Shown here: in pieces, positions 4,245 through 36,821 of the stretch
How positions within the stretch are numbered: the stretch's first letter is position 1
Layout: each line of letters opens with the position of its first letter
The notes under the pieces: generated by a model
The model's input: only the letters and a program-made list of their open reading frames with translations
Databases searched by the model: none
Told to the model about the DNA's origin: nothing
Assembly: GCF_001424665.1 (NCBI RefSeq)
Contig: NZ_LMQS01000002.1
Span: forward strand, 310,001 to 374,000
From: Methylophilus sp. Leaf416
GTDB taxonomy: Bacteria > Pseudomonadota > Gammaproteobacteria > Burkholderiales > Methylophilaceae
Length of the DNA: 64,000 nt
Direction of reading: 5' to 3'
Made by a program: the position numbers and the translations under genes

Positions 4245-4285
4245 GGCAGCCATGTTCAAAACAAACTGAAAACAAAACAGGAAGA

Positions 4286-19118: not shown

Positions 19119-19590
19119 GGCAAACCTCGGCAATCAGCTCAGAAACCTTTTCACTATTCATGCGTCCATACACTTCATCATTCAGCATCACCGCCGGTGA
19201 GCAGCCACAGTTACCCAGGCAATACACGGGTAGCAATGTGACCTTGCCGTCTTGGGTTGTTTGATGGTAATCCACGCCTAGTCTGGATTTGAGTTCAGTC
19301 TCAAGTTTTTCGGAACCCATAGCCTGGCAGGATTCCGCACGACAAATCTGCAACACATGCTTGCCAATCGGGTGTGTACGGAAATGGTGGTAAAAACTGA
19401 CGACACCATGCACTTCAGCGACTGAAAGTGCTAATGCCTTGGATATATCGGGATAAATAATCTCAGGGACATAGCCGATATCATCCTGAATCGCATGTAA
19501 AAGAGGCATCAAACCACCCGGCACATGCTGATGTGCTTGGATATGTGCTTTTATGAGCGTCTGCTGCTCCTGGCTTAATAAATGATCCAA
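19111..19590 (-). CDS. fdsG: Formate dehydrogenase gamma ([2Fe-2S], NuoE-like) subunit
   Basis: A 159-residue NuoE-like subunit. The four [2Fe-2S] ligands are seen in CRAESCQ and [11 protein letters not shown], and [17 protein letters not shown] is typical. It is first in the fdsGBACD operon. The start is a TTG with GAGG seven bases upstream; no better in-frame ATG precedes it. Only 13 bases upstream of this codon lies a GTTACA direct repeat also found near xoxF, so regulation of the operon probably acts right at this point. Confidence 0.93.
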
Positions 19591-19602: not shown

Positions 19603-19619
19603 GTTACAATTTAGTTACA
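19603..19619. promoter_or_regulatory. GTTACA-N5-GTTACA direct repeat, fdsG/moaA intergenic region
   Basis: Two exact GTTACA hexamers (19603-19608 and 19614-19619), 11 bases apart start to start, separated by ATTTA. The same arrangement occurs upstream of xoxF at 34229-34245. One-helical-turn direct repeats are typical sites for response regulators of the OmpR/PhoB type. The site lies 13 bases before the fdsG start codon and 84 bases before moaA. Confidence 0.6.
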
Positions 19620-19702
19620 TTCTATCACCCCGAAATCATACGCTTTATTCATCCCTTGTGAAACCATGAAAAGGGCATAGAATATTGATTACTTTAAAAT
19701 TA

Positions 19703-20722
19703 ATGGACGCAATGCAATTTTCGACTCACATTCCCTCGCAGCTTATCGACCAGTTTGGCCGGCATGTCGACTACATTCGCCTGTCAATCACAGACCGTTG
19801 TGATTTCCGTTGCCAGTATTGCATGGCTGAAGAAATGACATTTTTGCCTCGCGATGAAGTGCTGAGCCTTGAAGAATGTTCGCGACTGGTTAAATTGTTT
19901 GTCCGTATGGGCGTGACGAAAGTTCGTATTACCGGCGGCGAACCATTGGTGCGCAAAAATGCCATGTGGCTGTTTAAAGAGATAGGCCATTTGCCAGGCC
20001 TGCAGGAATGCCTGCTCACTACTAACGGTAGCCAGCTGGATAAACACAGCCTGACTTTAAAAGCCGCTGGTGTTAACCGTATCAATATTTCTCTAGATAG
20101 CCTGGATGAAGAACGCTTCCGCAAGATCACCCGTGTCGGTGAACTGCCAAAAGTGCTGTCCGGCATTGAGCATGCCATTCAAGCCGGATTCAGCAATATC
20201 AAACTTAACACTGTGCTGATGCGTGGCATTAATGATGATGAAGCCTTCGACCTGGTGAACTTTGCTATCCAGAAACATATTGATATTAGCTTTATTGAAG
20301 AAATGCCATTAGGTGAAGTTAACCATGACCGTGAAAGCAGTTGCATCAGTAATAACGAAACGCTGGCACAATTAAAAAATAAGTTTTCACTCACCCCGAG
20401 CATGCATAAAACCGGTGGCCCTGCGCGTTACTGGCAAGTGAATGGAGAAAAAACAAGAATCGGGTTTATCTCCCCGCATAGCCATAACTTTTGCGAAAGC
20501 TGCAATCGTGTGCGCATCACCTGTAAAGGTGAATTATTCTTATGCCTGGGACAAGAACATAAAATTGACCTGATGCCACTTTTGCGCACTCACCCTAAAG
20601 ACGATATGCCCCTGGTTGAAGCTATCTTGCAAGGCATGCGCATCAAACCCAAAGGACATGACTTTGATTTACAGCGCGCAGCGCCAGCCGTAATTCGATT
20701 TATGTCGCATACAGGCGGTTAA
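19703..20722 (+). CDS. moaA: MoaA, GTP 3',8-cyclase
   Basis: A radical SAM enzyme of about 339 residues that starts molybdopterin synthesis from GTP. The SAM cluster motif CDFRCQYCM lies in RLSITDRCDFRCQYC; the C-terminal second cluster is CESCNRVRITCKGELFLC; TGGEPLVRKN is also typical. The start is uncertain: ATG at 19703 or 19712, or an upstream TTG at 19685; no strong ribosome-binding site is seen. It is divergent from fdsG, whose product complex needs this cofactor. Its stop directly abuts the mobA ATG. Confidence 0.95.
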   Translation: MDAMQFSTHIPSQLIDQFGRHVDYIRLSITDRCDFRCQYCMAEEMTFLPRDEVLSLEECSRLVKLFVRMGVTKVRITGGEPLVRKNAMWLFKEIGHLPGLQECLLTTNGSQLDKHSLTLKAAGVNRINISLDSLDEERFRKITRVGELPKVLSGIEHAIQAGFSNIKLNTVLMRGINDDEAFDLVNFAIQKHIDISFIEEMPLGEVNHDRESSCISNNETLAQLKNKFSLTPSMHKTGGPARYWQVNGEKTRIGFISPHSHNFCESCNRVRITCKGELFLCLGQEHKIDLMPLLRTHPKDDMPLVEAILQGMRIKPKGHDFDLQRAAPAVIRFMSHTGG

Positions 20723-21271
20723 ATGCAGGTTACCGCAGTTATCCTGGCCGGCGGGCGTGGTATGCGTATGGGTGGCATTGATAAGGGGCTAGTCGATTAT
20801 CAAGGCAAAACGATGGTGGCACATGTGCTTGACCGCATACAGCCACAAGTGGCGCAAGTCATGATTAATGCAAACCGTAACCTCGAGACCTATCACCAGT
20901 TCGGTGTACCCGTAGTCACAGATGCTAATACGCAGTTCGACGGTCCGTTATCAGGTTTTCAGGCAGGTTTAAAACATACCCAAACTGACTGGCTACTGAC
21001 AGTGCCATGCGACTCACCCCTGTTGCCGCTGGATTTAAGCCAGCGAATGTCGCGAGCGATTAACCACTCAAATGCTTTGATAGCAATTGCACGTAGTAGC
21101 AGCGGAGACCATCCGGTGTTTTGCCTGCTTCATCGCAGTTTAAGCAACGATCTTGATGCATTTCTGCAAGAGGGGCAGCGCCGCGTCAGTGCCTGGCAAG
21201 CACGGCATACACCGGTGTTTGTTGATTTTGAAGATGAGCTAGCCTTTACTAACATTAATCATGCACTTTAG
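20723..21271 (+). CDS. mobA: MobA, molybdenum cofactor guanylyltransferase
   Basis: A 182-residue nucleotidyltransferase that joins GMP to molybdopterin. AVILAGGRGMRMGGIDKGL is the nucleotide-binding signature, TVPCDSPLLP the metal-binding Asp region, and FDGPLSGFQAGL is also conserved. The start codon follows the moaA stop without a gap. Bacterial formate dehydrogenases use the guanine dinucleotide form of the cofactor, so this gene fits the neighbouring fds operon. Confidence 0.95.
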   Translation: MQVTAVILAGGRGMRMGGIDKGLVDYQGKTMVAHVLDRIQPQVAQVMINANRNLETYHQFGVPVVTDANTQFDGPLSGFQAGLKHTQTDWLLTVPCDSPLLPLDLSQRMSRAINHSNALIAIARSSSGDHPVFCLLHRSLSNDLDAFLQEGQRRVSAWQARHTPVFVDFEDELAFTNINHAL

Positions 21272-21404
21272 CTGTATCCACAAGTAGATATAAATAGCCC
21301 TACCGTCTGGACTGCGAACAACCTTGGATCAGACTTGATTTTTAACATGGTGGCTGACGCCACAGCCTGTAAAATAATGATTTTGCAATTGGTGAATATT
21401 TGTC

Positions 21405-22673
21405 ATGCAATCTTCTGATTTAGAACTATCCGATTTAGCGTCAAAGGCCTCGTGCGTGGATGACTATGACCCGAACGCGATGTCAGTGACACAGGCACGT
21501 CACTACATCCAGCAGTTCTTAAGCCCGGTCAGCGAAACTGAAACAGTAACACTCAAAGACAGTTTGGGACGTTTTTTAGCCAAACCAGTGATTTCCGGCA
21601 TGAATGTGCCTGGCCATAATAATTCGGCTATGGATGGTTTTGCCTTCAGGCATGCAGAAGGGGGGAATCCACTCAACGTGATCGGTACTGCATTTGCGGG
21701 CGCTCCGTTTACTTCAGAAATTCCGGCCGGCTGCTGCATCAAAATCATGACTGGAGCGGTCATCCCACCTACCGTTGATACGGTCATCATGCAGGAACAA
21801 ACCTCAACTGAAGGCGAGTTGGTTACCCTGGTAAAATTGCCGGCTTTGGGCGCCAATATCCGCCTGACCGGAGAAGATGTAGCGATAGGCCAAACGGTGT
21901 TGACGCCTGGTCATCGCATTGAACCTGCAGATATGGGTCTGCTGGCCTCTTTGGGGATTGGTGAAATTGAGGTCTATCGTCGATTAAAAGTGGCTTTTTT
22001 TAGCACTGGTGATGAGTTGGTAAGCGTCGGCAAACCTTTGCAACAAGGGCAGATTTATGACAGTAACCGCTACAGTTTATGGGGTGTGTTAGAAGCAATT
22101 GGTGTGTCAGTCACTGACCTTGGCAATGTGGCCGATGACCCGACTGCCTTGGAAAAAACTTTGCTGGAAGCCGCCTCTGGGTACGATGTAGTAATTACCA
22201 GTGGTGGCGTCTCGGTCGGCGAAGCAGACTTTATGAAACAACTGCTAGCCAAACATGGACAGGTTTTGTTCTGGAAAATCAACATGAAGCCAGGCCGGCC
22301 GCTGGCTTACGGCAAAATCGGCACTGCGCATTATTTTGGACTGCCTGGTAACCCGGTGTCTGCGATGGTGACTTTCTACCAGTTTGTTCAGGAAGCGCTC
22401 AAAACTTTGATGGGAGCAGCTCACCTGGCAACACCCTCTTTTCAAGTCGAATGTGTCAACGCCATCAAAAAGGCTACTGGCCGTACTGAATTTCAGCGGG
22501 GCATATTGTTTAAAGAAGGTGAAACCTGGAAAGTGAAAACCACTGGCGAACAAGGCTCTGGTATTTTAAGTAGCATGAGCCGGGCCAATTGCTTTATTGT
22601 GCTTAATGAGCAAACCGGCGCACTGGAAGCTGGGACTTTGGTAGAAGTGCAACCTTTCCATGGCGTGTGCTAG
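21405..22673 (+). CDS. moeA: MoeA, molybdopterin molybdenumtransferase
   Basis: A 422-residue protein that inserts molybdate into adenylated molybdopterin. NVPGHNNSAMDGFAF, AGCCIKIMTGAVIPPTVDTVIMQEQT, TGDELV, GQIYDSNRY, TSGGVSVGEADFMK and the LPGNPVSAMVTF block are all characteristic. An N-terminal extension of about 25 residues precedes the usual start of homology. It follows mobA after about 130 bases and completes a small cofactor cluster beside formate dehydrogenase; moaBCDE and mogA are not in the window. Confidence 0.96.
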   Translation: MQSSDLELSDLASKASCVDDYDPNAMSVTQARHYIQQFLSPVSETETVTLKDSLGRFLAKPVISGMNVPGHNNSAMDGFAFRHAEGGNPLNVIGTAFAGAPFTSEIPAGCCIKIMTGAVIPPTVDTVIMQEQTSTEGELVTLVKLPALGANIRLTGEDVAIGQTVLTPGHRIEPADMGLLASLGIGEIEVYRRLKVAFFSTGDELVSVGKPLQQGQIYDSNRYSLWGVLEAIGVSVTDLGNVADDPTALEKTLLEAASGYDVVITSGGVSVGEADFMKQLLAKHGQVLFWKINMKPGRPLAYGKIGTAHYFGLPGNPVSAMVTFYQFVQEALKTLMGAAHLATPSFQVECVNAIKKATGRTEFQRGILFKEGETWKVKTTGEQGSGILSSMSRANCFIVLNEQTGALEAGTLVEVQPFHGVC

Positions 22674-22759
22674 ATAACAAACCTTCAGGCACTGGCAGGA
22701 ATGCTAAAAAATAGCTTATAGTGTCGGGTCGTATAGGGCTTTAAGGTTAGGGTTTAGGC

Positions 22760-23560
22760 GTGCAAGCCGTTCTACAAGAATCAAAAACACAGTTCAAACA
22801 TGTATTGGAGTGGTGCCTGATTGGCTCGCTGCTGGTACATGCATTGATCATGCTTTATATTCCCAAACCTACTTACGAAAAGCCCCCGGTCCAGAAACAG
22901 GAAATTCAAATCGAGCTCGTGAAAGAGACACCACCAGCAGCGGTTTCGCCTCCAGCCGAGCCTGAGCCAACGCCACCTACACCTGAACCACCCAAGCCTG
23001 AACCGGTAAAACCACCACCTAAGCCGGTAGAGCCTAAGCCTGCGGAACAAAAACCAACCCTGCCGCAAAAGGCATCGCCTCTGCCGGAACCACCGGTAGA
23101 GCCTACCCGGACAGTTACAGAAGCGCCGGCGCCTTCAGTGATTACGGCGAAACCAACCGCTAGCGAGAGTAAAGCTGAAGTGGTCCCGCCGCCAGCACCG
23201 CCAGCACCGCCTGCACCACCCCCTGAGCCTCCCAAAGCGACGGGGCCTAGTGAAGGTGATATTGAAGCTGCGCGCAATGCGTTTAGAAACGCAGCACACA
23301 GGGAGCTAAAGAAAAACCAGCGCTACCCCAGAATTGCGCAAGACAGGGGCATTGAAGGTGATGTCAAACTGAGCATTAACATTGATGACCATGGCAACAT
23401 CACAGGGATCGAAGTGCTTGAGTCCAGTGGCAATAAAGCGATTGATGAGGCGGCACTGGCAGCCGCACAGAAATCGCAGTTAAAACCGCATTTTAACGAG
23501 ATTCTGCGCGGTAAAATCAGCAATATTGTAGTGACTGTCAGCTTCAGATTGTCCAGCTAG
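22760..23560 (+). CDS. TonB family energy transducer
   Basis: A 266-residue TonB-like protein: one N-terminal membrane helix (about 18-33, CLIGSLLVHALIMLYIP), a long periplasmic spacer rich in Pro, Glu, Lys and Ala (about 35-165), and a C-terminal TonB domain (about 175-266) with YPRIAQDRGIEGDVKLSINI and VLESSGNKAIDEAAL. It transmits the proton-motive force to outer-membrane receptors with ExbB and ExbD. No exbBD and no TonB-dependent receptor are nearby. The start is GTG. The sensor kinase gene begins 3 bases after its stop. Confidence 0.9.
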   Translation: MQAVLQESKTQFKHVLEWCLIGSLLVHALIMLYIPKPTYEKPPVQKQEIQIELVKETPPAAVSPPAEPEPTPPTPEPPKPEPVKPPPKPVEPKPAEQKPTLPQKASPLPEPPVEPTRTVTEAPAPSVITAKPTASESKAEVVPPPAPPAPPAPPPEPPKATGPSEGDIEAARNAFRNAAHRELKKNQRYPRIAQDRGIEGDVKLSINIDDHGNITGIEVLESSGNKAIDEAALAAAQKSQLKPHFNEILRGKISNIVVTVSFRLSS

Positions 23561-23563
23561 CAC

Positions 23564-25042
23564 ATGGCACTTTCCCACGGAAAATTTAAAAAAGCGTTTA
23601 CGCAACGGGCGTATGGCAAGTCTCTTCGACACTTATTGCTGTTTCATGACCTGTACTTTATTGCCCTGATTATTCTGGCCGTGGCCAGTGGTGGCTACGG
23701 CATTTATCTATGGGATAAAGCCTCCAAACAATCCCAGCGTATCAATATCGTTATCCAGGAAATTTATCTGGTCAGGGGCGATTTATATCGCCAGGTAAAG
23801 GAGTTATTCGATGCTTTTTTTCTGCAGGAAGAAAATGCGCTCAACGAATACAACCACTACACGGCATCCATTTTGTTGCACCTGGAGCGCTTGCAAAAGA
23901 TTGCGATTGATGAAGAAGAAAGAACTGCGCTTAGCGAAATTGAAAGTAAATACCGCAAGCTTGTAAATGAAGCACCGACCTTGTTCTACCGCTATCAGAA
24001 CAACCCGAACAAACAGGCGCAGAAGTCTATTTACCAGGATATTGAAACCGGTATTTTTACGCATTACGAAGAAGTATCCAAACGCGCTGAGCACCTGCTG
24101 ATGATCAAGCAAAGCGAGATCAAAAATCGCCTGGAAGATGCCAGAAGCAGCTCAATTGCAGTGTTGTCATTGCCACTATTGCTGGCCTGTGTACTGATTA
24201 TTTATTCAAGGCGCATTTTAAAGCGGTCCATCGTCAAACCAATCAATGACATCATGATTGCTACCAATGCGATCAGTGCTGGCAACCTGAGCCACCAGGT
24301 GCCTGAAGCAGGTGCGGAAGAGCTGGCGGTGCTATCTAAAGAGATTAATAAAATGGCCGAGGATCTGGCCTTAAGCCGTGATGCCCTCGTTAAAAGTGAA
24401 AAACAGGCGGCACTCGGCCTGCTGGTGCCGATGCTGGCACATAACATCCGCAATCCGCTCGCCAGTATTCGCGCAACAGCCCAGGTGATTGATGCGCCGG
24501 ACCGTGATACCCAGGAATCTGTGCAGGGGATCATACACACTGTAGACCGCCTGGAAAGATGGACTGGCAGCCTGCTCTCATATTTGCACCCGATTAAACC
24601 GATGCTGAACCAGCTAATGCTGTCGTCAATTGTGCAAGGTGCGATCATGACGCTGCAGCCCAAACTTAATGAAAAAAACATCAAAATCATTGAAGACAGT
24701 GCCAATATAAAACGCCTGATATTGACTGATGAGCACCTGCTGGAACAAATGCTCTATAACTTATTGCTCAACGCTTCTGAAGCCTCTCCGAAAGGCTCTG
24801 AGATTCATATTCAGTGTATACTTTTAGACAATACGTTGACGCTGGTCATCATAGATCAGGGCCCCGGAATGCCGTTTAAGCCAGATCCGCATGCCATCAC
24901 ACCTGGACCAACCACCAAACGCTTTGGTACCGGCCTGGGTATTCCTTTTGCATTCAAAGTCTGCGAAGAGTTAGGCGGCGCCATGCAGTTTGACAGCCAG
25001 GCCGGCAATGGCACCCGCATCACTATTTCATTACCTCAATAA
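23564..25042 (+). CDS. Membrane sensor histidine kinase (orphan)
   Basis: A 492-residue kinase. The first membrane helix is at about 33-52, a helical periplasmic sensor region at about 55-190, the second helix at about 195-215, and a HAMP linker after it. The dimerisation/phosphoacceptor domain has His293 in MLAHNIRNPLASIRAT. The ATP-binding domain shows an N box (LYNLLLNASEA), a G1 box (IIDQGPGMP) and a G2 box (KRFGTGLGIPFA). No response regulator gene lies next to it. It is 3 bases from the tonB-like gene and very likely co-transcribed, which may link its signal to TonB-dependent uptake. The stimulus is unknown. Confidence 0.9.
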   Translation: MALSHGKFKKAFTQRAYGKSLRHLLLFHDLYFIALIILAVASGGYGIYLWDKASKQSQRINIVIQEIYLVRGDLYRQVKELFDAFFLQEENALNEYNHYTASILLHLERLQKIAIDEEERTALSEIESKYRKLVNEAPTLFYRYQNNPNKQAQKSIYQDIETGIFTHYEEVSKRAEHLLMIKQSEIKNRLEDARSSSIAVLSLPLLLACVLIIYSRRILKRSIVKPINDIMIATNAISAGNLSHQVPEAGAEELAVLSKEINKMAEDLALSRDALVKSEKQAALGLLVPMLAHNIRNPLASIRATAQVIDAPDRDTQESVQGIIHTVDRLERWTGSLLSYLHPIKPMLNQLMLSSIVQGAIMTLQPKLNEKNIKIIEDSANIKRLILTDEHLLEQMLYNLLLNASEASPKGSEIHIQCILLDNTLTLVIIDQGPGMPFKPDPHAITPGPTTKRFGTGLGIPFAFKVCEELGGAMQFDSQAGNGTRITISLPQ

Positions 25043-25140
25043 CCTGGACCACACAAAAGCTTGATTGCGTTAGCGACTAATTTTCTTTTTCTGCTTGCTT
25101 AATTTTGGTTTTTTATCAACAATGTGGTTAAGCATTTGCC

Positions 25141-25611
25141 ATGAATATTATGTTGAATTCACCTGCTCCCGCGTTATCCTTGCCAGCCACCTCCGGCCTT
25201 CAATTCAAAGTCAGCGACTATTTGGGGAAATACATTGTTTTGTATTTTTATCCCAAAGATGCGACGCCTGGCTGTACCACTCAAGGCATCCAGTTTCGAG
25301 ATATGCATGCTGAGTTCACAGCCGCAAATGCCGTGATTTTCGGAATTTCGCGGGATACACTTAAATCTCACGAAAACTTCAAAGCCAAGTACCTGTTTCC
25401 GTTTGAGTTAATCTCCGATAGCGAAGAGCTTGCCTGTCAGGCGTTTGATGTGATTAAAATGAAAAACATGTACGGCAAGCAGGTACGTGGTATTGAGCGT
25501 AGTACGTTTTTAATTGATCCGAAAGGCACCATTGTCCACGAGTGGCGTGGTGTCAAGGTCGATGGCCATGCCGCAGAAGTGCTGGCCTGTATCCAATCTT
25601 TCCACTCATAA
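25141..25611 (+). CDS. bcp: Thioredoxin-dependent peroxiredoxin Bcp (PrxQ)
   Basis: A 156-residue peroxiredoxin of the Bcp/PrxQ class. The peroxidatic cysteine is in FYPKDATPGCTTQG (about residue 45). The resolving-position residue five later, Cys in many Bcp proteins, is here part of QGIQFRD, so it is probably a 1-Cys form or resolves elsewhere. ISRDTLKSHENFKAKY is also typical. It removes hydroperoxides with thioredoxin. ATG codons at 25141 and 25150 are both possible. Confidence 0.93.
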   Translation: MNIMLNSPAPALSLPATSGLQFKVSDYLGKYIVLYFYPKDATPGCTTQGIQFRDMHAEFTAANAVIFGISRDTLKSHENFKAKYLFPFELISDSEELACQAFDVIKMKNMYGKQVRGIERSTFLIDPKGTIVHEWRGVKVDGHAAEVLACIQSFHS

Positions 25612-25622
25612 AGTGATTTTCT

Positions 25623-27017
25623 ATGGCACGTGCTCCACAAACTAAGCTGTTCGTTCTGGATACCAATGTACTGATGCACGATCCTTCATCGCTGTTCAGG
25701 TTCGAAGAACACGATGTGTACTTACCGATGGTGACCTTGGAAGAGTTGGATAATGGCAAAAAAGGTCTTACGGAAGTTGCCCGAAATGCGCGCCAAGCCA
25801 GCCGTTTCCTGGAAGAAATCATGGGTAGCGCCGATACTGATAACTTGGAAGCTGGCTGTTCGCTAGCGATCAAGGGTAATCGCCACCTGCCGGGAAAACT
25901 GTTTTTCCAGACGGAACATGTGCCTACAGATTTGCCAGGATTGGCAGGGAGTAAAGCAGACAACCAGATTATCAGTGTAGTTCTGTCACTTAAGAAACAA
26001 ACCCCTGACCGTAACGTCATCCTGGTCAGCAAGGATATTAATATCCGCATCAAGGCACGCGCAATGGGTGTGCCTTCTGAAGACTACTTCAACGACAAAG
26101 TGCTGGAAGACAGCGATATGCTGTATACCGGCTTGCGAGAGCTACCGGAAAACTTCTGGGAGGAACATAGCAAAGACATGCATTCCTGGCAGGAAGCAGG
26201 CCGGATGTTTTACAAAATCAGCGGACCGGTTGTGAAATCGCTCCTGATCAATGAATTTGTGTTTTATGAATACAACAAACCTTTTCATGCGATAGTGCGC
26301 AAACTTGAAGATAATTCTGCGGTGCTGGAAGTGGTGCATGACCATGCAAACCCCAAGCACAATGTATGGGGCATTACCGCGCGTAATCGCGAACAGAACT
26401 TTGCTTTAAATCTGTTGATGGATCCTGACATTGATTTCGTGACCTTGCTCGGCCAGGCAGGTACCGGTAAAACATTATTGACCCTGGCGGCCGCCCTGAC
26501 GCAAACCCTTGATAAAAAACGCTATTCTGAAATCATCATGACCCGTGTCACCGTACCGGTGGGTGAAGATATCGGCTTTTTACCAGGCACTGAAGAAGAA
26601 AAAATGGCGCCTTGGATGGGCGCACTGGAAGATAACCTGGATGTGCTGAACAAGACTGATGAAGATGTCGGTGAATGGGGCCGTGCTGCAACACAGGATT
26701 TGATCCGTACGAGAATCAAGATCAAGTCGCTCAACTTTATGCGTGGCCGCACTTTCCTGAATAAATTCCTGATCATTGATGAAGCGCAAAACCTGACGCC
26801 GAAACAGATGAAAACGCTCATTACGCGCGCAGGCCCAGGCACCAAAGTTGTCTGTTTGGGCAATATTGCGCAAATTGATACACCTTATTTAACAGAAGGT
26901 AGCTCTGGCCTTACTTATGTGGTTGACCGCTTCAAGAACTGGCAGCATAACGGCCACATCACCCTGATTCGTGGCGAGCGTTCGCGCCTGGCTGATTTTG
27001 CGGCAGAGGTGTTGTAG
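25623..27017 (+). CDS. PIN domain-PhoH family ATPase
   Basis: A 464-residue protein with two parts. The N-terminal PIN nuclease domain (about 1-150) has LFVLDTNVLMHDP, TLEELDNGKKG and the Asp of SKDINIRIKARAMG. The C-terminal PhoH ATPase has Walker A GQAGTGKT near residue 277 and Walker B FLIIDEAQNLTPKQM near 382. PIN-PhoH proteins are thought to be RNA helicase-ribonucleases. It follows bcp after 11 bases, a pairing common in betaproteobacteria, and precedes lplT by 21 bases. Confidence 0.93.
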   Translation: MARAPQTKLFVLDTNVLMHDPSSLFRFEEHDVYLPMVTLEELDNGKKGLTEVARNARQASRFLEEIMGSADTDNLEAGCSLAIKGNRHLPGKLFFQTEHVPTDLPGLAGSKADNQIISVVLSLKKQTPDRNVILVSKDINIRIKARAMGVPSEDYFNDKVLEDSDMLYTGLRELPENFWEEHSKDMHSWQEAGRMFYKISGPVVKSLLINEFVFYEYNKPFHAIVRKLEDNSAVLEVVHDHANPKHNVWGITARNREQNFALNLLMDPDIDFVTLLGQAGTGKTLLTLAAALTQTLDKKRYSEIIMTRVTVPVGEDIGFLPGTEEEKMAPWMGALEDNLDVLNKTDEDVGEWGRAATQDLIRTRIKIKSLNFMRGRTFLNKFLIIDEAQNLTPKQMKTLITRAGPGTKVVCLGNIAQIDTPYLTEGSSGLTYVVDRFKNWQHNGHITLIRGERSRLADFAAEVL

Positions 27018-27038
27018 ACATTCGTCTGCCCTGCTGCC

Positions 27039-28208
27039 ATGGTCAAAGGCTTTTATACCCTACTGATTGCCCAGTTTTTATCGGCAATTGCCGATAATGC
27101 ACTCCTGTTTGCAGCCATTGCCCTGCTCGCGCAACTGAATGCCCCGACTTGGCACGAGCCTTTGTTGCGCGAGTTTTTCGTCATCTCCTATATCCTGCTA
27201 GCGCCGTTTGTAGGCCCCTTTGCTGACGCGTTACCCAAAGGCCGGGTCATGTTTTTAAGCAATGGCCTCAAGTTCGCAGGGTGTTTGCTGGCGCTCGCTG
27301 GTGTACCTCCACTATACGCCTATGCGGTGGTGGGTATTGGTGCAGCGGCGTACTCCCCGGCTAAATACGGCATCCTGACTGAAATGCTGCCTTCGCATCT
27401 ACTGATCAAAGCCAATGCGTGGATGGAAGGCACGACAGTGACCGCCATTATTCTGGGACCAGTGTTTGGATCTACAATTGCTGCCGCGACCAGCCCTTAT
27501 GTGGGTATTGCGTTTATTACGCTGCTTTATCTACTGGCGGCAGCGTTTAACTATTTCATCCCTAAAGTACCTATCGACCACAAGGTAGAGCAAAAGACGC
27601 TCAAGTACTTGTTGAAGGACTTTTGGCATGCATTTATTACCTTGTGGAAAGACCCGCAAGGCCAGGTTTCCCTGGCGGTAACAACACTGTTCTGGGGCGC
27701 CGGGGCGACTTTGCAGTTTGTGGTTCTGAAATGGGCAGACGTGAAGCTCGGCTTTACACAGCAGGAAGCGACTTACCTGATCGCGATTCTGGCTGTAGGC
27801 ATTGCTGCCGGTTCAGTCATCGCCTCGCGCTATGTCCAGCTGGAGAATGCCGTTAAGGTATTACCAGCAGGCATTTATATGGGCATCCTGGTGATCAGTA
27901 TGGTACTTATTACCAACCCGATTGTAGCTGCTGTTTTACTGTTTGTGATTGGCGTGTTGTCAGGCTATTTTTTAGTGCCGCTGAACTCTCTGCTACAGCA
28001 TCGTGGCCATCATTTGCTGGGTGCCGGGCACTCGATCGCTGTGCAAAACTTTAACGAAAACATAGGCATACTACTGTTACTGGGTGCCTATACCTGGATG
28101 GTGGGTGCAAAGTTCGAAATCAATACCATTGTGGCAATATTTGGTGTGTTTATTATTGTCAGTATGTCGTTGATTACATTCGTTTACCGTAAACATATTC
28201 AACGTTAA
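27039..28208 (+). CDS. lplT: LplT, lysophospholipid transporter
   Basis: A 389-residue major facilitator with about 11-12 membrane helices. FYTLLIAQFLSAIADNALLFA at the N-terminus, GPFADALPKGRVM, YSPAKYGILTEMLP and VPLNSLLQHRGHHLLGAGHSIAVQNFNEN match LplT, which flips lysophospholipids across the inner membrane for re-acylation. In enterobacteria it is paired with the acyltransferase Aas; here no aas is adjacent. A strong bidirectional terminator follows. Confidence 0.92.
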   Translation: MVKGFYTLLIAQFLSAIADNALLFAAIALLAQLNAPTWHEPLLREFFVISYILLAPFVGPFADALPKGRVMFLSNGLKFAGCLLALAGVPPLYAYAVVGIGAAAYSPAKYGILTEMLPSHLLIKANAWMEGTTVTAIILGPVFGSTIAAATSPYVGIAFITLLYLLAAAFNYFIPKVPIDHKVEQKTLKYLLKDFWHAFITLWKDPQGQVSLAVTTLFWGAGATLQFVVLKWADVKLGFTQQEATYLIAILAVGIAAGSVIASRYVQLENAVKVLPAGIYMGILVISMVLITNPIVAAVLLFVIGVLSGYFLVPLNSLLQHRGHHLLGAGHSIAVQNFNENIGILLLLGAYTWMVGAKFEINTIVAIFGVFIIVSMSLITFVYRKHIQR

Positions 28209-28234
28209 GTAAACTAAACACTTTGGGGCTAAAC

Positions 28235-28268
28235 AAAAAGGGCGCTTGCAGCGCCCTTTTTGTTTTTT
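28235..28268. terminator. bidirectional terminator between lplT and ndh
   Basis: AAAAAGGGCGC, a 5-base loop, GCGCCCTTTTT: an 11-base stem with A and T tracts on both sides, serving the two convergent genes. Confidence 0.9.
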
Positions 28269-28282
28269 GACATGCTGAGTGA

Positions 28283-29608
28283 TTAGTGCAGTTTCACATG
28301 TGGTTCGGTACGTCTGGATATCAGGCGGCCGATGCTATGCACAATCACCGCCAGCACGCCATGCAATGCCATCAAATGCATTTTATACAGGCTACGGTAC
28401 ATCACACGGGCAAATAAGCCCTGAATATACATGCTGCCGCCAGCCACAGCACCCATCAAGCTACCGACAGTAGAGTATTTACCAAGGTTAACCAGTGAGC
28501 CATAATCGCGGTAATGAAACTCTGGCAGCGTTTCTTTGCCTGCCACGCGTGCTTTCACTGTTTTCACCAGTAATGATGCTTCCTGATGCGCAGCTTGCGC
28601 ACGTGGCGGCACCGTCGTGTCGTGGCCCAGCCATGGACAGGCGGCACAATCACCAAAAGCAAAAATATTTTCGTCACGCGTGGTTTGCAGGTGCTGGTTA
28701 ACGACTAGTTGATTAATTCTATTCGTCTCCAGGCCATCAATATCCTTTAGGAAATCCGGTGCCTTAATACCCGCTGCCCACACCACCAGTTCCGCAGGAA
28801 TAAAACGACCACTATGTGTGGTAATCCCTTTAGGAGACACTTCAGTCACGCGCTCACCAGTAAAGACGTTCACACGCAGTTTACGCAACTCAACATCTAC
28901 GGCGTAAGAAAGCTTATTCGGTAACGCCGGCAAAATGCGGTCGCTGGCTTCAATCAGTGAAATTTTGACATCACGATCCGGGTCAATCTTGTCCAATCCG
29001 TAGGCAGTTAATTCACGTGTGGTGTTATGCAGCTCAGCAGCGAGTTCAACACCGGTGGCACCCGCGCCTACGATAGCAACTTCCAGCTGACCAGGTTTCA
29101 ATGCTTCAGATTGCGTCTGCGCCCGTAATAATGCGTTGTGCAGGTAACGGTGGAACCGTTGTGCCTGGGAGTGAGTGTCTAATGCCAGTGAGTATTCACG
29201 TGCTCCGTTGATGCCAAAGTCATTAGTCGTACTACCAACGGCAATAATCAGGGTGTCATATTTAAACGTACGCCGTGCAATCACTTCATTGCCATCTTCG
29301 TCCATAAATGGCGCCAGGCTCACTTCACGCGTAGCGCGATTTAAGCCATCCATACGCCCCAGGCGGAACTTGAAGTGATGCCAATGCGCTTGTGCAAGGT
29401 AATCCAGCTCGTGACGGTCTGGATCCATGCTACCGGCTGCGATTTCATGTAATAACGGTTTCCATACATGTGTTCTGGTGCTATCAATCAGCGTGATGAG
29501 AGCCTTGTTCTTTTTTCCAAGGGAATCTCCCAGCTTGGTTGCCAACTCCAGTCCACCTGCGCCACCACCTACGATGATGACATGGTGCAAATTATTTTCA
29601 TCCGTCAC
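28283..29608 (-). CDS. ndh: Type II NADH dehydrogenase
   Basis: A 441-residue single-subunit NADH:quinone oxidoreductase. The FAD-binding GGGAGGLELATKLGD is near the N-terminus, the second dinucleotide fold has VAIVGAGATGVELAAELHN, and WAAGIKAPDFL plus FAFGDCAACPW are typical of NDH-2. A hydrophobic C-terminal part may anchor it to the inner membrane. I use the GTG at 29608, preceded by AAGGA; the frame stays open to 29650 across a hairpin. Next to methanol and formate oxidation genes, it is a plausible sink for NADH without proton pumping. Confidence 0.93.
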   Translation of the reverse strand: MTDENNLHHVIIVGGGAGGLELATKLGDSLGKKNKALITLIDSTRTHVWKPLLHEIAAGSMDPDRHELDYLAQAHWHHFKFRLGRMDGLNRATREVSLAPFMDEDGNEVIARRTFKYDTLIIAVGSTTNDFGINGAREYSLALDTHSQAQRFHRYLHNALLRAQTQSEALKPGQLEVAIVGAGATGVELAAELHNTTRELTAYGLDKIDPDRDVKISLIEASDRILPALPNKLSYAVDVELRKLRVNVFTGERVTEVSPKGITTHSGRFIPAELVVWAAGIKAPDFLKDIDGLETNRINQLVVNQHLQTTRDENIFAFGDCAACPWLGHDTTVPPRAQAAHQEASLLVKTVKARVAGKETLPEFHYRDYGSLVNLGKYSTVGSLMGAVAGGSMYIQGLFARVMYRSLYKMHLMALHGVLAVIVHSIGRLISRRTEPHVKLH

Positions 29609-29623
29609 ACTATATCCTTCAAT

Positions 29624-29656
29624 AAAAAAGCGCGCCTGCCGTACTGCCAAGCGCGC
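29624..29656 (-). terminator. hairpin between lipocytochrome and ndh
   Basis: On the minus strand two GCGCGC arms (29656-29651 and 29635-29630) around a 15-base loop are followed by TTTTTT. It would partly end the cytochrome transcript and let some reading continue into ndh. Confidence 0.55.
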
Positions 29657-29676
29657 ACAACAACTACATTATACCG

Positions 29677-30189
29677 CTATTCGTTACCTGTGATTTTGGC
29701 ATGGCTACGAATAAAAGCGATCACTTTCAATACGTCATCTGGCTTCAAACCATCATCTGGTGCCATCAGACCAAAACCTTTTGCACCCATACCGCCATTT
29801 GTACCATGCCAGATAGTCTCAAACATGCCTTTGTTAGTGGCATTTTTGGCATACCGGAAGTTTTCACCAATCAGGCCAGGCCCAACCGCACCTTCGCCAT
29901 GACCACCATGACAAGCTACGCAGGAAAACAAGTTAAATTTCTTTTTGCCTTCCTTGATTGCATCTTCTTTGCCGATATATGGATTTTTGCCTGTGCTTAA
30001 AAATTCTTTTGCGGCTGGTGTATCGAACATTTTTGCATCGATTTGCAACGGCTGTCCATCCTGGGTAGCTTCAAATTTGATTGCCTTAATATCCTCTGCA
30101 GCTGCCTCTGATCCGGCACCGGATTGACCACCATTACTACATGCCACCAATAACGTAGCAAGAACTGACGTTAACAACAAACTTCTCAT
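29677..30189 (-). CDS. c-type cytochrome lipoprotein, XoxG-like paralogue
   Basis: A 170-residue c-type cytochrome with a lipoprotein signal ending in LLVACS (lipobox Cys about residue 17), a short linker, and one haem site CVACH in FSCVACHGGHGEGAVGPGL. The likely sixth-ligand Met lies in the TNGGMGAKGFGLMAPDDGL stretch. From about residue 40 on it is nearly the same as the soluble cytochrome encoded just upstream at 30335-30817, so the two arose by duplication. The lipid anchor would hold it on a periplasmic membrane face. A role as electron acceptor of XoxF, or relay to the membrane, is inferred. Confidence 0.88.
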   Translation of the reverse strand: MRSLLLTSVLATLLVACSNGGQSGAGSEAAAEDIKAIKFEATQDGQPLQIDAKMFDTPAAKEFLSTGKNPYIGKEDAIKEGKKKFNLFSCVACHGGHGEGAVGPGLIGENFRYAKNATNKGMFETIWHGTNGGMGAKGFGLMAPDDGLKPDDVLKVIAFIRSHAKITGNE

Positions 30190-30284
30190 GATTGCCCCCC
30201 ATATGTTTACTTAGATATTCTTTGAAATTAAACAGTTTTTTATTGTTTTAATTATAGATAAAACCGACTGAATCATTGTGCCAT

Positions 30285-30318
30285 AAAAACAAAAAACGGT
30301 CACCAAGGTGACCGTTTT
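30285..30318 (-). terminator. terminator after the soluble cytochrome
   Basis: AAAACGGTCACC and GGTGACCGTTTT (12-base stem, 2-base loop) followed on the minus strand by TTTTTTGTTTTT. Confidence 0.88.
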
Positions 30319-30334
30319 AAGTTGGTATTAATTA

Positions 30335-30817
30335 TTATTCGTTACCAGTAGCTTTAACAACGCTGTTGCTACGGATGAAAGCAATCACTTGCAGCACTTC
30401 ATCTGGTTTCAAGCCATCATCTGGAGCCATCAGGCCATAGCCTTTAGCGCCCATACCACCATTAGTACCGTGCCAGATGGTTTCAAACATGCCTTTGTTA
30501 GTAGCATCTTTAGCGTAACGGAAGTTAGCACCGATCAAACCAGGACCAACTGCGCCTTCACCTTTACCACCGTGACAGGCTACACATGAATACAGGTTAA
30601 ATTTCTTTTTACCTGCTTTGATGGCAGCTTCGTTGCCGATATATGGGTTTTTACCTGTCGCCAAAAACTCTTTGGCTGCATCGGTATCAAACATGGCTTT
30701 ATCAATATTGATGGTAGATCCGTCTTGAGTAGCCGAAAAAGTTATATCAGCCACGGCGCCTGTTGCAAATGCCAACAGAGAAATCATTACAGCTGATTTA
30801 ATTTTGTTGCCTAACAT
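30335..30817 (-). CDS. xoxG: Soluble c-type cytochrome, probable XoxG (electron acceptor of XoxF)
   Basis: A 160-residue periplasmic cytochrome with a cleavable signal peptide (about 1-23, ending GAVA) and one haem motif CVACH in YSCVACHGGKGEGAVGPGL. MFETIWHGTNGGMGAKGYG and APDDGLKPDEVLQVIAFIR match the cytochrome cL/XoxG group. It follows xoxJ on the same strand, as in other xox clusters, and takes electrons from methanol dehydrogenase. An AGGAG site precedes the ATG and a strong terminator follows. The symbol rests on position and family; the lipocytochrome next to it could share the role. Confidence 0.87.
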   Translation of the reverse strand: MLGNKIKSAVMISLLAFATGAVADITFSATQDGSTINIDKAMFDTDAAKEFLATGKNPYIGNEAAIKAGKKKFNLYSCVACHGGKGEGAVGPGLIGANFRYAKDATNKGMFETIWHGTNGGMGAKGYGLMAPDDGLKPDEVLQVIAFIRSNSVVKATGNE

Positions 30818-31038
30818 GTTGTCTCCTAATCCTAAACAAAATGAGCGGCGTTAATTAGATAACCAAATAATTAACGCATGCTCATTTAACGAATCGTTTC
30901 AGAAACGGTTGACGAATATTTCCGAATTATATTCAGAATCTTTCACGTGGCCATTTCAAAACAAGTGGTCGATTTTACTGGGTTTTTTTTCCATTGTCAT
31001 TAATCGAGGCCTGTTTATAATATTTTTTCAATTCAGTG

Positions 31039-31917
31039 TTATTTTTTGTACACACTGTCACCTTCAACTACCGGTACGGTTGGAATCCCATAATCTTTCA
31101 GGATTGCATCAATCTTATCCTTGTTACGCTCAAGCGATTCATTGATCATCTTGATGCGGTCCTTGTCTTTCATTCTGACAGCAACAGAGATATTCCAGTA
31201 TTCCTTACCTTTTAAATTAACTTTGTTGTACTCAGGAATCATGCGGATTTCCAAAGGCTCTTTAGATTGCTTTGCATAATAACCAGCAATCGGGCCCCAC
31301 ATAATGGCCACATCAATTTTGCCTGTTACCAAATCATCAATCATAAAGCTGGTTGGCAGGTTCAAATCGCGCTGCAAACGATATGGACGTGCATTGGTCA
31401 TCAAGTTGTGATCATTTAAAGGAATAGTCGCAGGACTTTGGCCAACAATACCAATTATGCCTTTTTTAAGATCCGGGGAATCCCAATTGGTGATATCGTA
31501 GTTGCTGTTTTTACGCCATACGAAGACATGGCCGGAACGGTAATAAGGTTTGGATGTGCGCAGGCCATCAAAATCTGAAGTCATACCGATAATGACATCA
31601 CATCGCATTGCATTAATCGTATTGCGCAAAAAGCCCTGACGGTTATAGGCATACTGGAAAGTCAGCTTTTTACCGAGATCGTCCGCCAACACTTTTGCAA
31701 TTTTGTCTTCAAACCCTTCCAACTTGATATTGGAGTAAGGCATATTGTCAGGATCAGAACACACCTTAAACTCTGATTCATCAGCTACCCGGCGCACTTC
31801 TCCGATACGTCCTTCATCAGGGTTGATAGAAGGAATCTCTATTTCCTCAGCTAATACTGTTGCCTGTGTTGCCCATAACAATCCAATCGCACCCAATAAC
31901 TTCCATGTCATTTTCAT
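31039..31917 (-). CDS. xoxJ: XoxJ, periplasmic binding-type accessory protein
   Basis: A 292-residue periplasmic protein with a signal peptide (about 1-23) and the fold of bacterial solute-binding proteins (family 3). FKVCSDPDNMPYSN near residue 52 is the hallmark of the MxaJ/XoxJ group. XoxJ is thought to help activate or assemble XoxF. It lies downstream of xoxF on the same strand with about 245 bases between, a gap that holds a terminator, so it probably has its own promoter or depends on read-through. Confidence 0.93.
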   Translation of the reverse strand: MKMTWKLLGAIGLLWATQATVLAEEIEIPSINPDEGRIGEVRRVADESEFKVCSDPDNMPYSNIKLEGFEDKIAKVLADDLGKKLTFQYAYNRQGFLRNTINAMRCDVIIGMTSDFDGLRTSKPYYRSGHVFVWRKNSNYDITNWDSPDLKKGIIGIVGQSPATIPLNDHNLMTNARPYRLQRDLNLPTSFMIDDLVTGKIDVAIMWGPIAGYYAKQSKEPLEIRMIPEYNKVNLKGKEYWNISVAVRMKDKDRIKMINESLERNKDKIDAILKDYGIPTVPVVEGDSVYKK

Positions 31918-32083
31918 CTTGATTTCATCCTTGTTGTAATTTCACCTGTCGCCTTTGGAGTATTTTTTGAGCTCAAAAGTTCTGCTAACGTACGACAAGA
32001 GGCATCATCTTATCTTGAATAAGATTCTATTTGTAGCCAAAACGTACTTTAATTTCTTTTGTTATTACTAATCATGAATTTCA

Positions 32084-32116
32084 TGAAAAAAAACACCCTG
32101 CCGAAGCAGGGTGTTT
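32084..32116 (-). terminator. terminator after xoxF
   Basis: On the minus strand AAACACCCTG and CAGGGTGTTT arms around CTTCGG, followed by eight T residues. Confidence 0.9.
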
Positions 32117-32161
32117 AAGGAGTCAACGTATTTCTTAAGTTAACTTGAAATAAATTTCAAA

Positions 32162-34027
32162 TTACAGTGAGAATACATTCAATGCACCGCCACCAGGAGC
32201 AGCGTTGTATTTTGTCAACTCTTTGTAGCCACCAGCAGCACCCAGTGCGTCGGTGTCGTTAGTCATACCAAGGTTCATCGCAACACCAGCCCAACCGCCG
32301 ATACCGGACAGTACGCCAACGTATTGTTTACCTTTATGACCGTAGGTGAATGCGTTACCGATTACACCTGAACCTACTTGGAATTTCCACAGTTCTTTAC
32401 CGTTTTGAGCATCAACAGCTTTGAACCAACGATCCAAAGTACCGTAGAACACGATATTTGTAGATGTAGTCAGAGCACCGCCCCAAGCAGAGAACTTCTC
32501 TTTGTTGTACCAAACTTTTTTGTTGGTCATTGGATCATAAGCGCCGAAGCCACCCATTACGCCGTCAGGACCAGCAAACATAGTCAATGTAGCACCAACC
32601 CATGGTTGACCTGCAACATATTTAGACTCAACTGGCTCGTATGTCATACACACGTGGTTCAATGGTGTGTACATCAAGCCTGTTTTTGGAGAGTAAGCAG
32701 CTGGCTGTTGGTCTTTAGTACCTAAAGCAGCTGGGCAAACACCCTTAGCGTTGTAGTCTTGGTGAGTAGAAGCAGTAGCCAATTTGCTTGGTACGCCTGT
32801 TTTCAGGTCAACATCAGTAGCCCAGTTCACGAATGGGTGAACTTTTTCAGCAGCAACTAATGTACCGTTACCAGCTTGCCATGTGTACAGGAAACCGTTG
32901 CGGTCATGGTGCCATGCGTATGTTTTGCCACCTTTGTCGAACAGGATTACTTCGTTAATACCATCGTAGTCCCACTCATCGTGTGGAGTCATTTGCATAC
33001 CCCATTTAGCCACACCAGTGTCTAAATCACGAGCAAAAATTGTCATGGACCATTTGTTGTCGCCTGGACGTACATCTGGGTTCCAAACTGAAGGGTTACC
33101 AGTACCGTAGTAAACCAGGTTTGTTTTTGGATCATATGGCCACCAGCCCCATACTGAACCACCACCATGTTGCCAGCCGTCTTTAACAGCCTGTGGTTTC
33201 AACCAAGTACGTGTACCCAGTTCTTTTTCGCCTGTTTTCAGTTGGTCGTTAGGAAGTTTTTTGAAAGAACCGCCTTCTTTGTTACCACCGTTAACATCTT
33301 GGTATACAGACAGAGCGCTGTATTGTGGGTTTTCTTTGTTGAAGTCAGCACCGATCAATGACTCAGCGTCAGGACCTGATGAGTAAGCTTTCCATGCCAA
33401 AGAACCGTCTTTGATGTTGTATGCAGCGATAAAGCAACGTACGCCGAATTCAGCACCTGAACAACCGGTCAATACTTTGTCTTTGTAAACGTGTGGAGCG
33501 TTAGTGTTAGTAGCACCTACTTTTGGATCGGTGTTTTTAACATCCCAAACTTTAGCACCTGTTTTTGCATCCAAAGCGATCAAAACGCCGTCGTTTTGTT
33601 GCAGGAAGATTTTACCGTCGCCGTAGCCCAGACCGCGAGAAACGTTGTCACAGCACAAAACTGCTTGAACGCTTGGGTCTTGTTTTGGGAAATAGGACCA
33701 AACGATTTTTTGGTTATCGTTCAAATCCAGAGCGTATACGTTGTTTGGGAAAGCTGTGTGAACATACATCATGTTACCAACAACTACTGGTGAACCTTCG
33801 TGACCACGGTTTACACCAGTTGCAAATGTCCAAGCTGCTTTCAGGTTTTTTACGTTACCTTTGTTAACTTGTGACAGGTTGCTGTAACCTTGATTAGAAT
33901 AGTTACCGCGTGGGTGTGTCCAGTTGTTTGAATCTTTCATTGCAGCTTCTTGGTCTGCAGCGGCAAATGCGACCATTGGCAATGCTGCTACCAGGCCCAA
34001 AGCCAGTTTGATTTTGTTAACTTGCAT
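32162..34027 (-). CDS. xoxF: XoxF, lanthanide-dependent PQQ methanol dehydrogenase
   Basis: A 621-residue periplasmic quinoprotein alcohol dehydrogenase with a signal peptide (about 1-22). The eight-bladed propeller shows repeated W-docking motifs. Vicinal Cys125-Cys126 form the ring disulfide next to PQQ. Metal ligands expected for a rare-earth site are present: Glu193 (GAEFGVR), Asn311 (YGTGNPS), Asp353 and Asp355 in EWDYDG. The second Asp is the residue that separates XoxF from calcium-type MxaF, where it is Ala. The start is the ATG at 34027, with GGAG seven bases upstream; an upstream TTG frame is rejected. No mxaFI genes are in view. Strong synonymous bias suggests very high expression. 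Confidence 0.98.
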   Translation of the reverse strand: MQVNKIKLALGLVAALPMVAFAAADQEAAMKDSNNWTHPRGNYSNQGYSNLSQVNKGNVKNLKAAWTFATGVNRGHEGSPVVVGNMMYVHTAFPNNVYALDLNDNQKIVWSYFPKQDPSVQAVLCCDNVSRGLGYGDGKIFLQQNDGVLIALDAKTGAKVWDVKNTDPKVGATNTNAPHVYKDKVLTGCSGAEFGVRCFIAAYNIKDGSLAWKAYSSGPDAESLIGADFNKENPQYSALSVYQDVNGGNKEGGSFKKLPNDQLKTGEKELGTRTWLKPQAVKDGWQHGGGSVWGWWPYDPKTNLVYYGTGNPSVWNPDVRPGDNKWSMTIFARDLDTGVAKWGMQMTPHDEWDYDGINEVILFDKGGKTYAWHHDRNGFLYTWQAGNGTLVAAEKVHPFVNWATDVDLKTGVPSKLATASTHQDYNAKGVCPAALGTKDQQPAAYSPKTGLMYTPLNHVCMTYEPVESKYVAGQPWVGATLTMFAGPDGVMGGFGAYDPMTNKKVWYNKEKFSAWGGALTTSTNIVFYGTLDRWFKAVDAQNGKELWKFQVGSGVIGNAFTYGHKGKQYVGVLSGIGGWAGVAMNLGMTNDTDALGAAGGYKELTKYNAAPGGGALNVFSL

Positions 34028-34347
34028 ATTGATCTCCAAAGTTGAAACTAAGGGTTTAATATAGGTACACGCTCAACTTGCATCCACTAGGATTGGCATA
34101 CTAAATTGTTTGCATACTTTACACATTCTCGGCTAGGGAAAAATTCCCGACTTACTGTAGAAATTCACACTTTGCCGCATGTGAGGATTGCAATATAGAA
34201 CAATTTGTTTTCAATTGCAACACTTTAGTTACAAATTGGTTACACTTTTTTCAGCTTTGATTTTGTTATTTTTTCCAACTAAAATCTCTGTGAAAAAATA
34301 TTCGATAAATCATATAGTTAATTAAACAGTTGAGAAAACCAAGCAAG
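34028..34347. other. xoxF-pip divergent regulatory region
   Basis: This 320-base AT-rich region holds the xoxF and pip promoters, neither clear enough to place. It contains the GTTACA direct repeat listed separately. Also seen are a GGGAA/TTCCC inverted repeat (34136-34149), two GCATACT copies 16 bases apart (34096-34118), and two ATTGCAA boxes near 34188 and 34215. No gene is seen inside it. Confidence 0.6.
34229..34245. promoter_or_regulatory. GTTACA-N5-GTTACA direct repeat upstream of xoxF
   Basis: Exact GTTACA hexamers at 34229-34234 and 34240-34245, separated by AATTG. Spacing and orientation are the same as at 19603-19619 upstream of fdsG. On the xoxF strand it reads TGTAAC-CAATT-TGTAAC, about 200 bases before the xoxF start and about 100 before pip. 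Confidence 0.6.
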
Positions 34348-35391
34348 ATGAATCTTTTAAGTCTTTACCCGGAATGCACCCCTTTCTACCATGAGCTTTT
34401 AAAAGTCAGCGATATACATTCTGTTTATGTTGAGCAATGCGGCAACCCGGACGGCGTCCCGGTTATTTTTTTGCATGGTGGACCAGGCAGCGGATGTAAC
34501 CCGGCACAGCGAAGATTTTTTGACCCGGCTTATTACCGCATCATCTTATTTGATCAACGCGGTTGTGGCCGCAGCCAGCCTGCTGGCGAAACCGTAGAAA
34601 ATACCACCCAGGCACTGGTTGCTGATATTGAAATCATTCGTAATCACTTGAATATCACGCAATGGCATGTATTTGGCGGTTCATGGGGAAGCACACTGGC
34701 GCTGGCTTATGCTATCAAGCACGCTGAAAATATTATCAGCCTGGTACTAAGAGGTATATTTTTAAGCAGACCAAAGGAAATCGAATGGTTTCTGGGCAAT
34801 GTTGCGCTATTTTTTCCTGAAGCCTGGCAAACCCTGTTGCAAGACGTCCCTGGAGACCAGCAGGAAAATATCCTGGAATACTACGCAGGTCTGATATTTC
34901 ACGCTGATACCTCCATTAGCATACCGGCAGCAATTCGCTGGAATGCTTTTGAAGCCAGCATTATGAGCCTGGTCCCTAAACAGGAAATTCCGAAACAACA
35001 CAGTCCAACACCTGGGACCTCTATTGCAGACAGTTCAGAACAAACTGATTCAATTAAAGATAGTCTTAGTCAGGATAATCAGTCTGTAGATGGTGCAGTC
35101 GAGTTGGCACGCGCACGCGTACAGATTCACTATATCCGGCATTTATGTTTTGTTGATGGCGATCAATTACTTCAATCGGCAGCCAAGACATTGCAAAATA
35201 TACCAACCATTATCGTACAAGGCCGCTACGACATGGTGTGCCCACCGCAAACGGCCTGGGAGCTTTCCCATGTCATGCCGCAGGCGAAACTCGTAATGGT
35301 GCCTGATGCCGGCCACTCCGCCATGGAGACCGGCACTTGCCAGGCATTGCTGGCTGCGACCGAGCAGTTCAAATCACTGACGCCTTTATAA
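34348..35391 (+). CDS. pip: Proline iminopeptidase (with an internal insertion)
   Basis: A 347-residue alpha/beta-hydrolase that releases N-terminal proline from peptides. HGGPGSG holds the oxyanion region, GGSWGSTLALAYA the nucleophilic serine, and the catalytic Asp and His are in QGRYDMVCP and PDAGHSA. Between VPKQE and VELARARVQIHYI there is an extra stretch of about 35-40 residues rich in Ser, Gln, Thr and Asp that the family normally lacks. It lies in the cap region and may be a disordered loop. I take the ATG at 34348; a TTG at 34330 is in frame. Confidence 0.92.
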   Translation: MNLLSLYPECTPFYHELLKVSDIHSVYVEQCGNPDGVPVIFLHGGPGSGCNPAQRRFFDPAYYRIILFDQRGCGRSQPAGETVENTTQALVADIEIIRNHLNITQWHVFGGSWGSTLALAYAIKHAENIISLVLRGIFLSRPKEIEWFLGNVALFFPEAWQTLLQDVPGDQQENILEYYAGLIFHADTSISIPAAIRWNAFEASIMSLVPKQEIPKQHSPTPGTSIADSSEQTDSIKDSLSQDNQSVDGAVELARARVQIHYIRHLCFVDGDQLLQSAAKTLQNIPTIIVQGRYDMVCPPQTAWELSHVMPQAKLVMVPDAGHSAMETGTCQALLAATEQFKSLTPL

Positions 35392-36801: not shown

Positions 36802-36821
36802 TATTTTAGGAATTTTGCATA

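Follow-up and report, generated by a model that had tools for sequence, protein, structure and literature searches.

Which regulator reads a short direct repeat that stands upstream of both a methanol dehydrogenase gene and a formate dehydrogenase operon in a methylotroph? The question is raised by a 64,000-nucleotide stretch of the genome of Methylophilus sp. Leaf416 (contig NZ_LMQS01000002.1, positions 310,001–374,000; hereafter the window), in which GTTACA-N5-GTTACA occurs exactly twice, both times on the plus strand, at 19603–19619 (GTTACAATTTAGTTACA) and at 34228–34244 (GTTACAAATTGGTTACA). Both copies sit between divergent genes, fdsG/moaA and xoxF/pip, respectively. The analysis described here points, with a probability of about 75%, to a predicted tandem site of two half-sites, with a third added at xoxF, for binding of OmpR, the response regulator of a two-component system of the Ris/EnvZ-OmpR type.

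Results and Discussion

The exact repeat is rare and intergenic

In 100 dinucleotide shuffles of the window, the exact repeat was found 0.01 times on average, and no shuffle contained two matches. This agrees with the sequence-only reading that had drawn attention to the repeat and had put its chance expectation in 64 kb well below one. That reading had also correctly described two exact copies in the same orientation, each where a minus-strand C1-oxidation operon diverges from a plus-strand gene, although its position for the second copy (34229–34245) is one base too high. The 11-base period, which it took to suit a tandem response-regulator site, agrees with helical-turn spacing. When up to two mismatches were allowed, seven matches were found in the window versus 4.3 expected, which is no clear excess.

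The genome to which the window belongs (G000, 2.94 Mb) contains the exact repeat five times, whereas its reversed control is absent. All five lie between listed open reading frames: in the fdsG/moaA and xoxF/pip regions, upstream of a gene for an OmpR-type response regulator (a kinase gene comes next), upstream of DUF2244-coxB-coxA (the cytochrome c oxidase operon), and upstream of a gene for a DUF2189 membrane protein. Many copies in unrelated promoters or in coding regions, or a lack of conservation, had been named beforehand as outcomes that would count against a shared operator. Neither is seen, as every copy is intergenic and the copies are kept at orthologous places in close relatives. 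A scan of the same genome with one mismatch allowed gave 20 matches versus 23 for the control, and genome-wide the exact form alone is therefore informative; mismatch-tolerant genome scans, showing no excess over control, were dropped as evidence.

Of the half-site spacings, N5 alone stands out. Among 102 pairs with spacings from N2 to N16 in 14 genomes, 57 have the N5 spacing, compared with four in the reversed N5 control of the same genomes; 13 pairs have N4 and eight have N16.

The N16 pairs occur in seven of the 14 genomes (one in each of six, two in G009). The one viewed, in the own genome (C2:87366–87393; L193, about 960–1010), consists of direct repeats with a 22-bp period around GTTACA, has extra repeated bases, and lies upstream of an open reading frame labelled by eye as UmuD-like; for these reasons the N16 pairs were set aside.

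Distribution of the box in the genus, family, and order

At least one exact copy is present in 17 of the 22 genomes of the genus, the own genome included (63 copies versus 14 of the reversed control), and in 3 of 15 other genera of the family (four copies, control three). Within the family, the exact form is therefore enriched in the genus alone. Of 24 other families of the order, six have exact copies (15 copies, control six); the contexts of two of these, both in G040, were viewed. No match from outside the genus was used as evidence.

At xoxF itself, conservation extends further. In 28 orthologous upstream regions, from which the paralogues L104 and L112 were excluded, the box is exact in 12, has one mismatch in three and two mismatches in ten, and is absent from three (G026, G029, and G032). 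The sequence TRTTGCAA, overlapping the -35 element in 11-bp phase after the box, is found in 27 of the 28. The strict signature TGTAAM-N5-TGTAAM-N5-TRTTGCAA retrieved 74 stretches from the collection of genome contigs, 56 of them 155–222 nt upstream of xoxF and in the same orientation; in six others a like promoter stands next to the end of the locus but no xoxF was found, and the remaining 12 come from unrelated organisms. Counted as presence anywhere in the genome, the strict signature occurs in 74 of 187 genomes of the family, and relaxing it raises the number to 139 (reversed controls 0 and 1, respectively).

The other boxes have a narrower distribution. The fdsG box is exact or has one mismatch in all 15 loci L113–L127 and is found in one of 15 others (G019, in the opposite orientation). 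At the cytochrome c oxidase operon, the exact box stands just 5′ of DUF2244 in every one of 15 genomes from a single clade, these loci having been selected for holding the box. A matrix built solely from the sites of one clade scored p < 0.05 in other genomes at 13 of 16 xoxF, 6 of 15 ompR, 4 of 16 fdsG, and 6 of 19 cox loci; because the genomes are related, combined p-values from this matrix overstate the significance. As the xoxF box extends over the family whereas the fds box is largely limited to a single clade within the genus, the two do not represent one ancient switch.

OmpR as the candidate regulator

The own genome (G000) encodes OmpR elsewhere (C2:54208–54930), with the kinase gene adjoining. 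The regulator scores 382.7 bits against the OmpR equivalog NF007005 (cut-off 331), and its DNA-binding domain matches Escherichia coli OmpR with 138 bits, RstA with 62, and PhoB with 46. The kinase carries the Pfam RisS_PPD periplasmic domain (118 bits). An OmpR orthologue was matched in 36 of 37 genomes, G033 being without a match. In the 35 genomes that provided an ompR upstream region (G033 and G022 were left out), TGTAAM-N4/5-TGTAAM is present 5′ of ompR in 30, and matching boxes thus stand at the regulator's own gene through most of the family. The spacing is N5 in 16 and N4 in 14, with no instance of N3 or N6, and mononucleotide shuffles gave 0.05 per 35. In a comparison of 30 ompR loci, the exact form GTTACA-N5-GTTACA stands at 14.

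The hexamer is a published one. In Bordetella, the consensus GTTACA was present in 391 of 430 RisA peak regions obtained by chromatin immunoprecipitation sequencing, and a site lies at risA itself (PMC11019879). For E. coli OmpR, the motifs are KWWGTTACAT and GTTACATTTTGTTACAT (PMC5438342). Several sequence features of an OmpR/RisA system are present in the own genome: a GTTACA/TGTAAC half-site, a tandem arrangement one helical turn apart, an OmpR orthologue, and an adjoining kinase of RisS/EnvZ type.

The small genomes of the family narrow the choice. G036, G034, and G024 each encode two OmpR-family regulators, one of OmpR and one of PhoB type, and all three carry the xoxF box. Since these genomes add just the PhoB type, and PhoB has its own TGTCA box, OmpR is the one left among the OmpR-family regulators. 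The other seven OmpR-family regulator genes of the own genome have no adjoining exact or one-mismatch site in the genome scans (upstream DNA was viewed for five).

Points against OmpR and rival explanations

Several observations weigh against the assignment to OmpR. Spacings from N2 to N16, pooled over the 14 genomes, gave 102 pairs versus 137 in the reversed control and are thus not enriched as a class. The kinase reaches 323 bits against the EnvZ model, below the cut-off of 415. Five of the 35 ompR upstream regions have no N4 or N5 box (G015, G026, G029, G034, and G027, the last with a TGTAAM-N5-TGTTTC pair only), and autoregulation is therefore not seen in G034, a key small genome. G026, G029, and G032 encode OmpR and yet have no xoxF box. 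In the matrix scan, the fds and cox boxes occur only sporadically beyond one clade. Within the own genome, which has three XoxF-type genes and one mxaF-like gene, about 52% identical (on C2, C1, C4, and C3), none of the methanol dehydrogenase genes besides the window copy has a box with one mismatch or fewer; the best matches have two mismatches at xoxF on C1, three at xoxF on C4, and three at the mxaF-like gene (upstream part). Regarding the elimination of other regulators, the PhoB-type protein of G036 falls under the PhoB cut-off (285.6 versus 296.2) with no TGTCA box at its phoB, and the inventory covered the OmpR family only. Finally, the two window sites have the N5 spacing that is prevalent here rather than the N4 of E. 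coli. This last difference is answered by the orthologous ompR promoters, which use N4 or N5.

The sequence-only reading had attributed the repeat to one unknown regulator serving the first and last steps of methanol oxidation. A regulator other than OmpR that is dedicated to methanol or lanthanides, whether MxaB- or MxbM-like or unnamed, would have precedents in the systems that control methanol dehydrogenase genes in other methylotrophs (PMC5018670), and the confinement of our inventory to one family leaves room for it. We nevertheless consider it unlikely. The half-site is identical to that published for OmpR and RisA, these half-sites are found again at cytochrome c oxidase and, in 30 of 35 genomes, at ompR, and the lack of a close box at the remaining methanol dehydrogenase genes counts against a dedicated regulator too, including at the mxaF-like gene, where a site for MxaB or MxbM is expected. 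What stands of the earlier proposal is an operator type common to xoxF and fdsG; the terms unknown and dedicated to methanol oxidation are not supported, and its interpretation as a whole is partly supported. A reading of the box by PhoB is more doubtful still, even though PhoB sites likewise have an 11-bp period, the three small genomes encode no member of the OmpR family besides OmpR and the PhoB type, and xoxF of an OM43 strain responds to the nutrient regime (PMC5120137). PhoB has its own box, as TGTCA-N6-TGTCA was found at phoB in exact form in three of seven genomes viewed (G000, G034, and G024) and with one mismatch in two; the phoB upstream regions have no TGTAAC tandem nearer than three mismatches, TGTAAC being found at ompR and not at phoB. 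The xoxF, ompR, and fdsG boxes themselves stand two mismatches away from the PhoB pattern. The RstA box, quoted as TACA-N6-TACA (PMC7315122), has a 10-bp period and does not describe the xoxF and fdsG sites, whose period is 11.

Two explanations dispense with a regulator. The conserved xoxF block could be no more than a strong core promoter preceded by A/T-rich DNA, and the -35 element (TATTGCAA) is indeed retained in G026, G032, and G029 despite loss of the box; the spaced TGTAA pair, however, is kept in register and recurs at ompR, cox, and fdsG without lying at a -35 there, so that this explanation appears slightly less probable even than PhoB. A chance repeat would fit the pooled spacing counts and the lack of enrichment of the one- and two-mismatch forms, but the excess of the exact N5 form over its control in the same 14 genomes and its retention at orthologous positions leave chance with next to no weight.

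Predicted mode of action

In the OmpR reading, the phosphorylated protein would bind head-to-tail TGTAAC half-sites one helical turn apart. The end of the box lies 30 nt from the -10 element at xoxF in the genus; in the 14 ompR promoters whose box is exact, this distance is 30–32 nt. A box abutting or over the -35 element, together with a third half-site, is the expected look of class II activation by an OmpR-family regulator. Because the box ends 30–32 nt before the -10 element, at or over the -35 element, activation of xoxF and ompR is predicted, with OmpR recruiting RNA polymerase. At fdsG, the end of the box is 12 bases from the start codon, and its place downstream of the predicted -10 element would suit repression, or else action on the divergent moaA. 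Regulation may therefore be of opposite signs, with activator geometry at xoxF and repressor geometry at fdsG.

A broader proposal, for which we judge the case to be evenly poised, is that Ris/OmpR has been rewired to one-carbon respiration in the Methylophilaceae: it would be a direct activator of xoxF in most members, streamlined lineages among them, would act on its own gene and, in some members, on the operons of cytochrome c oxidase and of MoxR type, and would repress formate dehydrogenase in one clade. Judged from the RisS-type sensor domain, the signal would be periplasmic or osmotic. If so, methanol oxidation would be gated by such a signal and not by methanol or lanthanide alone, and envelope sensing would be tied to lanthanide-dependent methanol oxidation. 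The regulation of xoxF becomes directly testable now that there is a candidate protein, an operator position, and a predicted promoter geometry.

Further targets may exist. The DUF2189 copy (C2:288273) has a spacer that was found in no other genome of the exact-copy scan of genus, family, and order. In G020 and G006, the cox box lies between divergently oriented DUF2189 and DUF2244 genes, and the DUF2189 box may for this reason be a moved target. Two MoxR-type ATPase operons are possible targets as well. One, with a DUF58 protein (L195, C1:228540), has a one-mismatch box that is exact in G002, G014, and G021, and the other (L194, C4:376668) has the array TGTTTC-N5-TGTAAC-N4-TGTAAC.

Features of the window

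Table 1. Genes, boxes, and predicted promoter elements at the two window loci
Feature	Position in window	Strand	Remarks
fdsG, NAD-dependent formate dehydrogenase gamma subunit	19111–19590	-	
Tandem box TGTAACTAAATTGTAAC 5′ of fdsG	19603–19619	-	Between predicted -10 and start codon
Predicted -10 TATGAT of fds operon	19635–19640	-	Conserved in alignment of 15 loci
moaA-like divergent gene	19685–20722	+	Label from the sequence-only reading; start uncertain
xoxF, PQQ methanol dehydrogenase	32162–34027	-	
Predicted -10 TATATT of xoxF	34192–34197	-	17 bp after -35, 30 nt after box
Predicted -35 TTGCAA of xoxF	34215–34220	-	Consensus scan; conserved in alignment
Third, degenerate half-site TGTTGC (GCAACA on plus strand)	34217–34222	-	11-bp phase with box; overlaps -35
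Tandem box TGTAACCAATTTGTAAC 5′ of xoxF	34228–34244	-	Two half-sites, 11-bp period; kept in 25/28 orthologous upstream regions with two or fewer mismatches
Divergent alpha/beta hydrolase gene	34345–35391	+	"pip" in the sequence-only reading; start approximate

Four other features were observed in the window. In the xoxF leader, the block AACCCTTAGT (34028–34066, minus strand; L083–L111) lies just 5′ of the ribosome-binding site; it recurs in 26 of the family's 28 upstream regions and is steadier than the flanking DNA. Downstream of xoxF is a tandem pair of similar cytochrome c genes (29677–30189 and 30335–30817, minus strand), and a solute-binding-type protein is also encoded there. The palindrome TGTTACAAAATTGTAACA at 36785–36802, which precedes the start of a tetratricopeptide-like open reading frame by about 20 bases, contains the same half-sites in inverted orientation. 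A bacterial class A RNase P RNA was found at 4284–4651 on the minus strand (224.6 bits).

Comparison with known systems

Among the titles and abstract openings found by searches of open-licence papers, none assigns a regulator to xoxF in the Methylophilaceae, and none links OmpR to xoxF. In a streamlined marine methylotroph of the OM43 group, xoxF is reported to be always the top transcript and to change about 20-fold with the nutrient regime (PMC5120137). The two-component systems MxaY/MxaB, MxbDM, and MxcQE of other methylotrophs resemble the proposed one in controlling methanol dehydrogenase genes; they differ in serving the lanthanide switch between mxaF and xoxF (PMC5018670), whereas the mxaF-like gene here has no box within one mismatch.

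Boxes of the OmpR/RisA type are already known. EnvZ/OmpR of E. coli shares the tandem GTTACA half-sites, and the regulator described here belongs to the OmpR equivalog and has a closely matching DNA-binding domain; in contrast to the N4 tandem of E. coli with its 10-bp period (PMC5438342, PMC7315122), xoxF, fdsG, and cox have the N5 spacing and ompR has either N4 or N5, and the putative targets are xoxF, fds, and cox. The RisA regulon of Bordetella pertussis, governed by a betaproteobacterial OmpR-type protein, is alike in its GTTACA half-site, in the site at its own promoter, and in the RisS periplasmic domain that is found in the kinase here. Its motifs, however, are 5 to 180 bp apart, no fixed spacing being reported, and its targets are virulence-phase genes (PMC11019879), in contrast to the putative targets in C1 oxidation and respiration here. 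Action of OmpR on an energy-oxidation cluster is known as well: in Acidithiobacillus caldus, OmpR acts directly on the tetrathionate cluster through GTTACA boxes. There the control of sulfur oxidation is negative (PMC9861516), whereas in Methylophilus the proposed target is C1 oxidation, with a predicted activator geometry at xoxF.

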